Positions 16,286 to 34,712 of a stretch of DNA of 36,001 bases are shown one piece after another; position 1 is the stretch's first letter, and each line of letters opens with the position of its first letter. This DNA is from a virus. A program made the position numbers and the translations under genes. The notes under the pieces were generated by a model. That model made no database searches and was not told the DNA's origin. It saw only the letters and a list, made by a program, of their open reading frames with translations. Location: IMG/VR virus record IMGVR_UViG_3300042938_001957, positions 1 to 36,001 of that record. One strand, written 5' to 3'.

Positions 16286-16684
16286 ATGAAAATTCTCAGG
16301 ACATCAGATCTTGTCACACTCTCAGCAAATGGGATTGAGGTTGATTTCTCCCCACTCACATATGAGAAGTCAATTGAGTTGTCAGGTTTCACAAAGACAG
16401 TTGCAGGTGAGGTTGTTGTTGATGGAAGAAAGCAAACTCATTTCTTGATCAAACATGCAGTCAAAGAGATTAGAGGTGCATTTGATTTTGAGGACAAGGC
16501 AATTGTTCTCAAGGCAGTCAATGGTGAGATGGATGACAAAGACATCACAGATGCAATCAACATCCTTGTTCACACATCTTTTGTCTATCCTCTTTCATAC
16601 ATATCAAACTCTGCAAGACCAAAGGGATTTGATGGAGTGGACATCCTGATCAATGGAAAGAAGATAGACTTGGGAAACGAGTAA
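16286..16684 (+). CDS. tail assembly chaperone (gpG-like)
   Basis: A 132-residue protein between tail tube and tape measure genes, the position of lambda gene G. It is alpha/beta with no enzyme motif. Its last codons, TTG GGA AAC GAG TAA, contain the slippery heptamer G GGA AAC in the right phase, so a fraction of ribosomes should shift back one base and make a longer G-T fusion. Ribosome site AAGGAAA. It binds the tape measure before the tail tube polymerises. Confidence 0.85.
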   Translation: MKILRTSDLVTLSANGIEVDFSPLTYEKSIELSGFTKTVAGEVVVDGRKQTHFLIKHAVKEIRGAFDFEDKAIVLKAVNGEMDDKDITDAINILVHTSFVYPLSYISNSARPKGFDGVDILINGKKIDLGNE

Positions 16685-16740
16685 CAGAGTCACTCTTATC
16701 TGTCCTGCTTGATGAGATCAGATCTCACTCAAGTGTGACT
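16672..16740 (+). other. programmed -1 ribosomal frameshift signal
   Basis: GGGAAAC (16672-16678) stands in the phase X XXY YYZ relative to the gpG-like frame. The -1 frame is open from there into the downstream frame. Ten bases downstream an outer stem AGTCAC (16688-16693) / GTGACT (16735-16740) encloses a perfect hairpin TGAGAT/ATCTCA (16713-16718 with 16722-16727), a plausible stimulator. The stop codon of the short product lies between heptamer and stem. Confidence 0.85.
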
Positions 16741-17148
16741 TGGGATGACTTGGTTGAGATTGTTGCAACCTTTGTCTCAATCCACAATTCAAACTTCCAT
16801 TGCAGGACATCTGAGAGAAAGGGATGTTTTGAGCTTGTCCCCAAGTGGAGGCGAGATCAAATGAAAGGATGTGGAGAATTGTCTGTCAAACCAGTCATGA
16901 TCTGGAAAGACAGGTTGAGATTTTTCAAATGTCCAACCAACATCAAGAATGGATATGTTGAAGAACTGATAGGACTTAATAGACAATACGAGAATGGAAT
17001 TTTACCATATGAAGGATCACTGTTCTCTCAACCTGCAAAGCTTGTTGAAGTGTTCAACCAGATCAATTCTCTCAGACTTGATGAAGAGATCTCAAGATCC
17101 AAACATGAGGAAAAAAAATGGCAGAAAACAAAATTGAAATCCAGATAG
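16678..17148 (+). CDS. frameshift extension of the tail chaperone (gpGT T-part)
   Basis: The -1 frame from CGA 16678 to the stop at 17148 adds 156 residues to the first 131 of the gpG-like protein, giving a fusion of about 287 residues. A GTG at 16735 could start a separate protein, but no ribosome site is seen and the frameshift explains the frame better. The extension is basic, has four Cys, and ends in a Lys-rich tail; its end overlaps the tape measure start by 31 bases. In lambda-like phages the T part binds tail tube protein. Confidence 0.8.
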   Translation, partial: RVTESLLSVLLDEIRSHSSVTWDDLVEIVATFVSIHNSNFHCRTSERKGCFELVPKWRRDQMKGCGELSVKPVMIWKDRLRFFKCPTNIKNGYVEELIGLNRQYENGILPYEGSLFSQPAKLVEVFNQINSLRLDEEISRSKHEEKKWQKTKLKSR

Positions 17149-19112
17149 ATGCCAATGTTTCAAGCTTATCAAAGTCTATCAAAGATGCTGATGCTGCAGT
17201 TGCAAAACTGTCAGATGGTATCCAATCAGGAATGAGAGATGCAAGAGTCTCAGTTGAGAGAGTTTCAAAAGAAGTTTCAAATGGTCTTGGTTCATCAATA
17301 GCAAAAATTGCAGGTGGAGTCTCTCTTGGTAACTTAGTCACCAGAGGACTTGATGCTGCATTCAGTGCTATCAAAGAGTTCACAGTTGGATCAGTTGCAG
17401 CATACAGTGAACAACAAGATGCTTTGAACAAACTTGGGTTTGCACTTAAAGCATCTGGAGATTATTCAGAACTTGCACTCCAGTCATTTGTCAGATTCTC
17501 TGCACAGATGCAACAAACATCAAAATATGGTGATGAACTTATCCTTGATCAACTTGCACTTGCAAAGTCATTTGGTGCAACCAATGAACAAGCACAAGTT
17601 TTGGTTCGTGCAGGTGCAGACATGGCCGCAACATTTGGTGGATCTCTTGACCAAAGAGTTGAGCAACTTGGAAAGACTTTCTCTGGAACTGCAGGAAAGC
17701 TTGGACAACTTGTCCCTGAACTTAAAAACTTAACAGATGCCCAATTGAGGGCGGGTGCAGGTGTTGATCTTATTGCATCGAAACTTGCAGGTGCAAGTGC
17801 AAATGAACTTTCAACACACACTGGATCTGTGATTGCAATGAAGAATGCATATTCAGATTGGCAGGAAGAAATCGGACAAAGCATCTCTGATAGTTCTGCA
17901 ATGAAAGACACAATCAGCATTCTTAAGAAATTGTTTGAGTCATACACAACATCAATCCATGATGCAAGGATAGAACAAGAAAGAGAGTCAGGATCACTTG
18001 TTGAAACTGCAGACTCAGTTGGACAACTCAATAGGAAGCTTGATGAGTTGAAAGTCAAAGAAATTGATTGGGAACAAACTCTGATCAATCCATCATTGTT
18101 TGATAAGTTTATTGGAAGCAATAGGAATGCAATTCAACAACTCCAGAAAGCAAGAGATGAGATCAAGGTCATTCAAGATCAAATTGTCCAAGCAAACACT
18201 GCAGTTTTTAGAGCTGCAGAAGATCAGTACAATGCTGAACAAAAAAAGAAACCAAAAGAAATTGTAAACTCTGACGAGCAAACAAAAATAATTGCAGACA
18301 AGCAAGCACTCAATGCACAACTTGAGGTGATTGATCTTGAGTACAAAGCATTCCAAGATCAGATGAGGATTGATAAAAACATCTTAACTGGTGAGGGACA
18401 ACTATTTGAGTATGAAGTCTTGATTGCACATGAGACTGCAAAAATAAATGCAATCAGAGATGCTGAACTTGCAAAGACTCAGATCATAAAGGATGAGGGA
18501 GTAAGAAAGGCAACTCAAGACAACATCAATAGGAAAGCAGAGATTGATGGACTCAAGTTGACTGCAACTGCAAAAAGAAAGGCAAGTGAAGATCAGATAA
18601 AACTTGATAGACAAGAATCTGCAACAAAGCTGCAGATTGCAAACAACTTCATGAGTGCAGGACTTGCAATATCAAAAGAGGGATCAACTGCACAAAAAGC
18701 TTTGATGATTGCTCAAGCAACAATGAACACATACATGGGTGCAACAAATGCTCTTGCAGACACAAGACCTGCTTGGCTTGCACCTGCAATGGCAGCATCA
18801 ATGATTGCACTTGGACTTGCAAATGTTGCAAGGATAGCAGGTGCAAAATTTGAGAGTGGAGGGATTGTTGGTGGAAGTTCTTTCACTGGAGATAAGATTG
18901 GAGTGAGAGTAAATTCTGGAGAGATGATTTTAAATTCTCAACAACAAAAAGAAATGTTCAAACAAATCAATGCAGGTGGTGGTGGATCAAATATTGAACT
19001 AATAAGACAAGTGATCTCTGAGTTCAGATCAATGCCAATAACTGTCCAAGCAAACTCAAGAGAGATTGCAAGACTTGTCAGAGATGAAAGAATCTCTGGT
19101 TTCGGAGTTTAA
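17118..19112 (+). CDS. tail tape measure protein
   Basis: A 664-residue helical protein that sets tail length. The N-terminal 60 residues and 350-510 are coiled coil; residues about 510-580 are hydrophobic helices (AMIAQATMNTYMGATNAL, WLAPAMAASMIALGLANVA). Near the C-terminus is the family's well-known motif ESGGIVGGSSFTGDKIGVRV followed by NSGEMILN and a Gln-rich run (about 587-618). By the usual 0.15 nm per residue the tail would be about 100 nm long. Translation starts within the end of the chaperone frame, with GAGG before the ATG. Confidence 0.92.
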   Translation: MAENKIEIQIDANVSSLSKSIKDADAAVAKLSDGIQSGMRDARVSVERVSKEVSNGLGSSIAKIAGGVSLGNLVTRGLDAAFSAIKEFTVGSVAAYSEQQDALNKLGFALKASGDYSELALQSFVRFSAQMQQTSKYGDELILDQLALAKSFGATNEQAQVLVRAGADMAATFGGSLDQRVEQLGKTFSGTAGKLGQLVPELKNLTDAQLRAGAGVDLIASKLAGASANELSTHTGSVIAMKNAYSDWQEEIGQSISDSSAMKDTISILKKLFESYTTSIHDARIEQERESGSLVETADSVGQLNRKLDELKVKEIDWEQTLINPSLFDKFIGSNRNAIQQLQKARDEIKVIQDQIVQANTAVFRAAEDQYNAEQKKKPKEIVNSDEQTKIIADKQALNAQLEVIDLEYKAFQDQMRIDKNILTGEGQLFEYEVLIAHETAKINAIRDAELAKTQIIKDEGVRKATQDNINRKAEIDGLKLTATAKRKASEDQIKLDRQESATKLQIANNFMSAGLAISKEGSTAQKALMIAQATMNTYMGATNALADTRPAWLAPAMAASMIALGLANVARIAGAKFESGGIVGGSSFTGDKIGVRVNSGEMILNSQQQKEMFKQINAGGGGSNIELIRQVISEFRSMPITVQANSREIARLVRDERISGFGV

Positions 19113-30644: not shown

Positions 30645-31487
30645 CTATCCAACCAACTCTGCAACCTTATCCCAAGCACCCTCAAGCTTCAAAATCATTT
30701 CAAGTGACTCTCTTTGACCATCTGGATATTTTTTTGTTGGTGCTTTGTATCTGTAAGATGTAGATAATTTTCTTTCTGCTTTCACAAGTCTTGCAACAAT
30801 GTGTGGTGCATGGTTTCCTGCAACTGCAATCTCTTTGTTTGATGAGAAGATGCACACTGCACATGATGCTCTTGAAACTCCCAATGAATAGCATGGATGA
30901 ACAGGGATCTTGTTCTCTTTGATAACACTCCAGACTTCTCTTTCTGAACATGGAAGTATTGGAGACAAGTGATGTACAGTTCTTCCATTTACTGAAAGTG
31001 TTTCACTGAATCTGATTGCCTCAAGAAGTGCTCTCTGATCAGACTCCTCAGCTCTCTCACCAATCAAGACAACAATGTTTCCCTTTAAAGTTCTTACCAG
31101 TTTGTTAATTGGTCCAGTCTTCAAAGAAGATGTGCACCATCTGCAATCCATTGATGGGAACATTTGTTCAACTGACTCCCCTTTGCTTATTTTTTTTCTC
31201 TCAAGGATGTCCACAAATCCTATCAACTTTCCAGTCTTGTCAATTGCCTGAACAAAGTGAAGCTTGTCTGCAACTCCAAAATGGATACACTGATCAATCA
31301 CAACTTGTTTTGTTTCATCCCAATCAATGTCAATTGTTGCATGAACAAAGATCAATTTTTCAAGTGGGAAATTATCAAGTGCATATTGCATCAACACTGA
31401 TGAGTCCTTTCCACCAGAGATGGAAACAACTACATGGTCAAAAGCTTGTTTAATGAAGTCTTTAATTTCTGATCTGTTCTCTTTCAT
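30645..31487 (-). CDS. PAPS reductase / DndC-like ATP pyrophosphatase family protein
   Basis: A 280-residue enzyme with the PP-loop SGGKDS (24-29), Cys-x-x-Cys in CRWCTSSLKTGP (115-126), an IGERAEESDQRA segment (142-153) and a C-terminal Cys cluster at Cys199, Cys209 and Cys212. These match the adenine-nucleotide alpha hydrolase family including PAPS reductase and DndC, which activates sulphur chemistry; the Cys pairs may hold an iron-sulphur cluster. Phage members are often suspected of sulphur-based nucleic acid modification, but no DndD or DndE partner is seen here. The start follows an ACAACAAGGA leader; a 43-residue frame overlaps it. Confidence 0.8.
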   Translation of the reverse strand: MKENRSEIKDFIKQAFDHVVVSISGGKDSSVLMQYALDNFPLEKLIFVHATIDIDWDETKQVVIDQCIHFGVADKLHFVQAIDKTGKLIGFVDILERKKISKGESVEQMFPSMDCRWCTSSLKTGPINKLVRTLKGNIVVLIGERAEESDQRALLEAIRFSETLSVNGRTVHHLSPILPCSEREVWSVIKENKIPVHPCYSLGVSRASCAVCIFSSNKEIAVAGNHAPHIVARLVKAERKLSTSYRYKAPTKKYPDGQRESLEMILKLEGAWDKVAELVG

Positions 31488-32668: not shown

Positions 32669-33071
32669 TTTTGATCCTTGTTGCACCTGATAGGTGGATG
32701 AGAGCAAGTGGAGATCCAAATGGTGCACAGATATTGGCAGTCCCTCCCTCGGTGTCAAAATGTCCATTGAAGACAAAATGTTCTCCAGAGTGTTCTCCAG
32801 ATACAACCTCAAACAAAGATCCCTTGAGTCCAATGTTTCTCTCAATCAAGTCATCAAGTGTTTCAACTGGAGTTGAGAAGTTGAATCTCTTGTCAATCAA
32901 CAAGAACACTTCTGAGAGAGTTGGAACAAACTTGATTGGTACATCTCTGAAACATTCTAAGAAACTAAAGAGTGCAGGATCATCTGTTTCAAGTTCAACA
33001 TCATCCAGATCATTTACAAAGTTTCTTGGATCTTCTTGCATGTTTAGTGCTAATTGCCTCATCTTCATCAT
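32658..33071 (-). CDS. hypothetical acidic early protein, 137 aa
   Basis: The start (ATG 33071, alternative 33068) is decided by TTTTAAAACAACAAAGGA directly upstream, so about 60 bases of this gene overlap the exonuclease gene in another frame. The first 40 residues are acidic (DLDDVELETDDP), the middle a likely alpha/beta domain, and the end has EHSGEHFVFNGHFDTEGG. Not recognised. The nested start and acidic character are common in small phage proteins that bind host enzymes, but nothing more is known. Confidence 0.55.
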   Translation of the reverse strand: MMKMRQLALNMQEDPRNFVNDLDDVELETDDPALFSFLECFRDVPIKFVPTLSEVFLLIDKRFNFSTPVETLDDLIERNIGLKGSLFEVVSGEHSGEHFVFNGHFDTEGGTANICAPFGSPLALIHLSGATRIKNVF

Positions 33072-33693
33072 CGGTGTCCTTTGTTGTTTTAAAATATTCC
33101 TTATCAAGGAACTCATCAACATTCATCCTTGGAAGAAAGATCTTTAAGATCTCCAAACATTTGAGTGCATCTGCAGATGCATCATGATGATCAAAGTCTT
33201 TCAGTCCAAGTGTTTCTGAGATTGATTTGAGGTTAAGTTTATCAAATCCAAATTGGATGTCCAAGTGCTTTGCAATTGAGTGTGTAGAAAGGATCTGACT
33301 TTCTGGACAAGACTTGTACAGATCCCAATGATGGTCCAGATCAAACAGGTTGTATTTTAAAACAGCATAATCAAAACAATAAAACTGTCCAAAGATGGAT
33401 CTGTTTGCATGACAAACAAAGTGAGATGTTGGTTTTGATTTTAGCCAAGATGCTAAGTGGTTTCCAACCTTGTACCAAGGATCAAACTTTTTGGCCTGAT
33501 CCCAAGTGATACCATGAATGAGTGATGCTTGATCTGCAGTCTTGTCCCACTTGGATGGTTTGGACTGGATGTCCAGTCTGTCAATGATGTTGAGATCCTT
33601 GTCACAATGAATGAAACATCCAGTGATGATCTGTGCATTGCTCACAACCTTGTCGGTTGTTTCGAGATCCACAATGATGAAACTATCCTGCAT
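33010..33693 (-). CDS. DnaQ-like 3'-5' exonuclease (DEDDh)
   Basis: A 227-residue protein with the exonuclease blocks: Asp9-x-Glu11 in IIVDLETT, Asp108 in CFDYAVLKY and H-x-A-x-x-D in HHDASADA (169-176; His170, Asp175). These are the metal-binding residues of the DEDDh family (DNA polymerase III epsilon, RNase T). In phages such enzymes process or proofread DNA, here probably in recombination with ERF and SSB. ATG 33693 was chosen because GGTGAG lies about ten bases upstream and it overlaps the SSB stop; ATG 33711 is also possible. Confidence 0.85.
   Translation of the reverse strand: MQDSFIIVDLETTDKVVSNAQIITGCFIHCDKDLNIIDRLDIQSKPSKWDKTADQASLIHGITWDQAKKFDPWYKVGNHLASWLKSKPTSHFVCHANRSIFGQFYCFDYAVLKYNLFDLDHHWDLYKSCPESQILSTHSIAKHLDIQFGFDKLNLKSISETLGLKDFDHHDASADALKCLEILKIFLPRMNVDEFLDKEYFKTTKDTDDEDEAISTKHARRSKKLCK
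33078..33095 (-). promoter_or_regulatory. leader motif inside the exonuclease gene
   Basis: Minus strand reads TTTTAAAACAACAAAGGA just before ATG 33071. It lies in the coding sequence of the exonuclease (as Phe-Lys-Thr-Thr-Lys) and sets the start of the nested next gene. Confidence 0.6.
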
Positions 33694-34015
33694 CAGATAT
33701 GATCTCACCATTGTGAATGAAATAAAACTTCTCAACAATTATCTGGAAAGTGAGTGGAGATTCTGAGTCAACTGCAAACAGATCCATGTGACCATCAATC
33801 ACAATCATCCTTCCATTTTCCTTAACATATTGATGGATGCATCTTGCATTGCCTTCATATGCAATTACATTCCACCAACAAACTTTGTCATGACCATTCC
33901 TTGATGCTCTCCATGTCTTAATGGTGAACTTCAAAAGATCCCTTCCAGTTGCAGTCTTGCTCATCACAAGATTGTAAACTGGACCAATGACTTGGGATGT
34001 TGCCTTGGTGTGCAT
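33683..34015 (-). CDS. single-stranded DNA-binding-like protein (OB fold)
   Basis: A 110-residue protein with the strand pattern of an OB fold: GPVYNLVMSKTATGRDLLKF (11-30), KVCWWNVIAYEGNA (about 44-57) and GRMIVIDGHMDL (about 68-79), close to bacterial SSB with its aromatic DNA-binding residues. It lacks the usual acidic C-terminal tail. It lies directly after the ERF recombinase, overlapping the exonuclease gene by 11 bases, so the three likely work together on single-stranded DNA. Confidence 0.75.
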   Translation of the reverse strand: MHTKATSQVIGPVYNLVMSKTATGRDLLKFTIKTWRASRNGHDKVCWWNVIAYEGNARCIHQYVKENGRMIVIDGHMDLFAVDSESPLTFQIIVEKFYFIHNGEIISDAG

Positions 34016-34016
34016 A

Positions 34017-34712
34017 TTACTTCTTTTTGTTGTTAAAATCAGTGATCAGTTTGCTTGCCATATCTTTTGATATGCCTTCCACAATTTTAAAGTCCTGCCC
34101 ATACATTTTCTTGATTGCATTGACTTGGGCAGGACTTGCAAGAATTACTTCTTGTTTTTTTTGCTCACTGGTTTGTTTGCTTTCTTGCTCACCTTTTTTG
34201 GTGAAGCTTTGATTGCCTTGGTTGAAGTTGCTTTGATTGCCTTGACTGTTTTTGTGACCATGTTGGCCTCCTTGTTTGTTGCTTGCATTGTTTCCATCAT
34301 CATCATCACCACTTGGTGCAAGTCCTATGGTTGCAAGGTATGAATATCTTCTGTAATAAGTAATAAGTGATCCAAGCTTTTGAGGATCTGGTTGGTTTGG
34401 AAGGATCATCTCAGACTCAACCATCTCACCAGACTCATGGATCAGTTTTGTCACAATGACCATCTGGAAGAACATGAACTTTCCATCCTTGTCCTCTCCT
34501 TCAATTCTTCTTGTCTCTATTGGTTGAATGACTGCAAGACCACATTCATTGAGTGCAGGTTTCACAGTATCAATGACAGTTGAAAGGTTTGCATACTTGG
34601 CATTATTGAAGAATGGATTTGTCTCAGACTTTGAGATCTTCTCAACTGACTTTTGAAAATCAACAAGTGCTTTGAGAAGTTGTTTGGTTGGGTTGGGTGA
34701 TTGAGTGATCAT
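34017..34712 (-). CDS. erf: ERF family single-strand annealing recombinase
   Basis: A 231-residue protein. The N-terminal 140 residues show the ERF core: FFNNAKYANLSTVIDTVKPA (34-53), NECGLAVIQP (55-64), and QKLGSLITYYRRYSYLATIG (111-130) followed by LAPSGDDDDGN. It anneals complementary single strands in phage recombination, as P22 Erf does. A Gln/Asn-rich linker (about 145-185, with repeats of QGNQS) separates a helical C-terminal domain. The start follows a perfect copy of the leader motif; the stop is followed by the SSB gene. Confidence 0.9.
   Translation of the reverse strand: MITQSPNPTKQLLKALVDFQKSVEKISKSETNPFFNNAKYANLSTVIDTVKPALNECGLAVIQPIETRRIEGEDKDGKFMFFQMVIVTKLIHESGEMVESEMILPNQPDPQKLGSLITYYRRYSYLATIGLAPSGDDDDGNNASNKQGGQHGHKNSQGNQSNFNQGNQSFTKKGEQESKQTSEQKKQEVILASPAQVNAIKKMYGQDFKIVEGISKDMASKLITDFNNKKK

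Follow-up and report, generated by a model that had tools for sequence, protein, structure and literature searches.

A putative lambda G/GT-type programmed -1 frameshift in the tail chaperone genes of a metagenome-derived virus and its relatives

Introduction

According to PMC5009743, which cites Xu, Hendrix and Duda (2004), programmed -1 frameshifts are broadly conserved in the tail chaperone genes of long-tailed phages. The gpG/gpGT pair of phage lambda uses the slippery heptamer G GGA AAG. The related heptamer GGGAAAC has been predicted at the gp18/gp19 tail chaperone frameshift of Burkholderia phage KL1 (PMC3483164) and is likewise reported as a prediction for the tail chaperone frameshifts of Caulobacter phage Colossus (PMC3556154) and of the haloarchaeal virus HCTV-1 (PMC5009743).

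Here, we studied the tail locus of the virus record IMGVR_UViG_3300042938_001957, analysed over its whole length of 36,001 bases (hereafter, the window). The locus resembles lambda G/GT in being flanked by tail tube and tape measure genes, in the in-phase XXXYYYZ sequence close to the end of the first frame, in the -1 extension, and in the short product that stops just past the site. Unlike lambda, the A-site codon is AAC instead of AAG, and the two proteins, called G and T below, show no recognisable relation to a known Pfam or PHROG family, T carrying conserved cysteines. KL1, Colossus and HCTV-1 have a heptamer identical to that of the window, a likeness that concerns the heptamer; in KL1, unlike in the window, an extra gene intervenes before the tape measure gene. 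As judged by comparison with relatives, the predicted frameshift is correct and well supported, and it is of a kind already known from lambda and many long-tailed phages.

Results

Two overlapping ORFs, G and T, lie between a PF18906 tail tube gene and a phrog_24676 tape measure gene (Table 1). The gene order tail tube, G, T, tape measure, on which the initial annotation had relied, is borne out by the Pfam and PHROG matches. Terminase, scaffold-like and major head proteins are also encoded in the window.

Table 1. Features of the tail chaperone locus in the window
Feature	Positions	Strand	Evidence or remark
Tail tube protein gene, 391 aa	14997..16172	+	PF18906 Phage_tube_2, E 7e-14; phrog_290, E 7e-15
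gpG-like tail assembly chaperone ORF (putative), 132 aa, zero-frame product	16286..16684	+	ATG start, AAAGGA upstream
Slippery heptamer G GGA AAC, in phase	16672..16678	+	position kept in relatives
Zero-frame stop TAA, one codon past the heptamer	16682..16684	+
-1 frame T-like domain, which a -1 shift would join to G	16675..17148	+	homologous in 42 other loci
Predicted RNA hairpin, possible stimulator, 3' of the heptamer	16713..16727	+	pair probabilities 0.77-1.0
Tail tape measure protein gene, 664 aa, overlapping the end of T	17118..19112	+	phrog_24676, E 8e-12

At the junction, the zero frame reads TTG GGA AAC GAG TAA. The heptamer is therefore in phase and two codons ahead of the G stop, as had been claimed. 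The -1 frame is likewise open as annotated, up to a TAG stop at 17146-17148, and a -1 shift would yield a fusion of 287 aa. On the 5' side, a stop at 16630-16632 closes the -1 frame, so that about 13 open codons precede the heptamer. The + strand of the window has 5 copies of GGGAAAC, and finding the motif is by itself no proof; what matters is where it sits and in which phase.

A second slippery-looking sequence, A AAA AAA at 17112-17118, lies directly 5' of the ATG of the tape measure gene, in phase with the T frame; slipping by -1 at this place would link GT to the tape measure protein. The nearest relative, L002, has no matching A run (AAAGAATGG), and the run is therefore probably due to chance or part of an A-rich ribosome-binding region.

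Conservation of the heptamer in relatives had been proposed as a check of the annotation. L002, which is 63-64% identical to the window in G and also in the -1 domain, has G GGA AAG in the corresponding place of the alignment, and its zero-frame stop lies at a different distance. Profile searches brought further G loci (the G-ORF homologues are L002 and L006-L017) and, for the -1 domain, 47 loci, a number that includes contigs found more than once. The counted set comprised 43 loci, namely the window and 42 others with a related -1 domain, taken from viral metagenomes and from isolated Rhizobium, Agrobacterium and Alteromonas phages. The Rhizobium phages were matched by the -1 domain, Alteromonas phage P24 was reached through locus L016, and Agrobacterium phage JP1 via a tail tube search. 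A tblastn search of the window's G against isolated phages gave no match, and two scans of bacterial genomes revealed no homologues.

All eight close loci have G GGA AAG or G GGA AAC, and canonical variants are present in 40 of the 43 loci, an outcome that leaves the frameshift unrefuted by this check. These in-phase XXXYYYZ sequences lie inside the frame overlap and lead into the second ORF; the other two phases gave 3 and 6 cases, and about 3.2 are expected by chance from the in-phase heptamer density elsewhere (upstream) in the same ORFs. The 43 loci share ancestry and do not count as 43 independent events, although protein identity goes down to about 25-30%. Six heptamers substitute for each other across the family: AAAAAAG (12 loci), GGGAAAG (8), GGGAAAC (6), AAAAAAC (6), CCCAAAG (5) and AAAAAAA (3). 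The remaining three loci, L038, L040 and L044, have a homologous T domain and overlapping frames and lack an in-phase XXXYYYZ sequence; another slip mechanism may be in use there. L044 does contain AAAAAAG, in another phase.

Selection on the junction was then considered in the eight close loci. The leucine codon preceding GGA ends in G in 8/8 of them, as compared to 6/76 leucine codons elsewhere in G, and the glycine codon at the heptamer is GGA in 8/8 as compared to 16/53 elsewhere in G. This codon choice fits what the heptamer requires. Over the 19 codons between the heptamer and GTG 16735, synonymous pairwise codon differences numbered 154 in the -1 register, as opposed to 32 and 21 in the remaining registers; over so few codons, pairwise dN/dS has much noise and often saturates. 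The -1 protein is thus kept from the heptamer on, 5' of any start codon, and the second ORF, conserved from the shift site, lacks a conserved start codon. What the compared sequences themselves show is the site with its phase, its conservation, the gene order and a -1 frame under purifying selection.

These data bear on whether T could be a separate gene, translated from GTG 16735 or from another internal start via re-initiation or translational coupling. Initiation at GTG 16735 was one outcome that the initial annotation had named as refuting a frameshift. This GTG is the earliest possible start of the -1 frame in the window, 21 codons past the heptamer, and the annotators of Rhizobium phage L338C gave the homologous gene an internal start. 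However, L002 has CTG at the corresponding position and the other close relatives have codons there that are not starts, and the first ATG, GTG or TTG of the -1 frame is found 26-89 codons past the heptamer in the seven other close loci, which makes independent initiation very unlikely. In addition, the conservation between the heptamer and the GTG is that of a protein read in the -1 frame, and no clear Shine-Dalgarno sequence was found ahead of 16735. An independent T start at this GTG was consequently dropped. In some more distant loci a start is present only a few codons after the heptamer, so that the argument from start codons holds for the close clade and for most of the wider family, though not for all of it. 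Overall, we regard a separate T gene as highly improbable.

Two further readings would dispense with ribosomal slippage. A sequencing or assembly error, or a broken gene, is conceivable in a metagenome-derived record, where a one-base error can split a gene; yet dozens of loci, coming from many samples, and five isolated-phage records are split identically and at the identical place, and a slippery site marks the boundary in nearly all cases. This conservation already refutes such an explanation, to which we give practically no weight. Transcriptional slippage might be evoked from the runs of A7 to A9 at the site in some relatives. Polymerase slippage normally requires long A/T runs, whereas the longest run of identical bases in the window's heptamer is three, and both the heptamer pattern and the downstream RNA structure agree with slippage of the ribosome. 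A change of frame during transcription is accordingly very hard to sustain.

Concerning this RNA structure, the initial annotation had described a hairpin within an enclosing stem that starts ten bases past the heptamer. The inner hairpin (TGAGAT-CAG-ATCTCA) is all but certain in the predicted ensemble (Table 1). In contrast, the outer stem was rejected: the inverted repeat GTCAC/GTGAC exists (16689-16693 / 16735-16739), but its ensemble pair probabilities are about 0. The 80-nt segment 16679-16758 has a minimum free energy of -28.2 kcal/mol, corresponding to z values of -2.1 versus dinucleotide shuffles and -3.1 versus synonymous-codon resampling, with 0.6% of controls equally good. Folding was less striking with shorter segments. 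In the 40 loci having a heptamer, the 60 nt straight after it gave a mean z of -1.49 versus codon-permuted controls (Wilcoxon p 2e-9, a value that takes no account of shared ancestry among these loci), whereas segments 60 to 240 nt further downstream gave mean values of -0.09 to -0.43. Because the excess is confined to the region directly after the heptamer, the localised folding signal is a property of the family, with individual predicted structures varying between loci. An Rfam search gave no match above the gathering score. The idea that AAC-type sites need a stronger 3' structure than AAG/AAA-type sites, hinted at by a first subset, found no support once all 40 loci were taken together (Mann-Whitney p values of 0.24 to 0.58).

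AlphaFold modelled G as a confident alpha/beta protein (mean pLDDT 90) and T, with moderate confidence (75), as mostly helical. A fold search of both against the PDB gave no significant match, the HK97 tail chaperone 2ob9 being ranked ninth for G with an E value of 0.96, and G and T profiles gave no trustworthy match in Pfam or PHROGs. Four cysteines of T are conserved in an 11-member alignment, two of them being present in 33/43 members of the wider set; one may guess from these residues that the domain binds zinc. T also carries the signature GxLP..G....QPxK, in which G115, Q120 and P121 (numbered from the heptamer GGG) occur in 43/43 loci, a recovery favoured by search patterns that contained part of the signature.

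The same signature is present in Rhizobium phages vB_RleS_L338C, P11VFA and RHph_I4, with an in-phase G GGA AAC, and in Agrobacterium phage JP1 and Alteromonas phage P24, with an in-phase A AAA AAC. In all of these, the heptamer is close to where the preceding ORF ends, upstream of the tape measure gene, and the T frame either has been entered as a hypothetical protein of its own or bears no annotation. L338C and JP1 have it annotated from a late internal start; in P24 it is unannotated. These three phages, which are loci L018 (KF614509), L019 (PQ741606) and L022 (MK241539), all have an in-phase GGGAAAC or AAAAAAC.

Discussion

The comparisons argue strongly, with a probability of about 95%, that the G/T pair is expressed through a lambda G/GT-type programmed -1 ribosomal frameshift. 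We infer that slippage occurs, at some rate, and what G and GT do. The majority of ribosomes would make the 132-aa G chaperone, terminating at 16682. A minority would slip by -1, with the tRNAs of the P and A sites moving from GGA AAC to pair with GGG AAA, aided by the RNA structure immediately 3' of the heptamer, and would produce the G-T fusion of 287 aa. On the lambda model, G would coat the tape measure protein, and the tail tube protein would be brought in by the T part. Counted against the frameshift are the weaker A-site AAC, the three loci with no in-phase heptamer and the lack of a significant match to a solved chaperone fold. With A AAA AAC, an A-site AAC is less slippery than AAG in E. 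coli (review, PMC5009743).

It also seems fairly probable that G and T represent a widespread tail-chaperone family unrecognised in Pfam and PHROGs. Its -1 module would be Cys-rich, possibly zinc-binding, and marked by the near-invariant signature; heptamers would be exchanged among its members, which would often be misannotated and would extend over Rhizobium, Agrobacterium, Alteromonas and many uncultivated hosts. The locus adds a well-supported case of a general rule of tail assembly. The 43 loci, with their varied slippery sites and common downstream folding signal, form a data set for studying the choice of heptamer and stimulator, and annotations of isolated phages that omit or truncate the -1 domain can now be corrected.

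Outside the tail locus, the - strand of the window carries a phosphoadenosine phosphosulfate reductase-like gene (30645-31487; PF01507, E 1e-17) and a gene for an ERF-like single-strand annealing protein (34017-34712; PF04404, E 2e-21), with an RNase_T exonuclease-like gene nearby (33010-33738).
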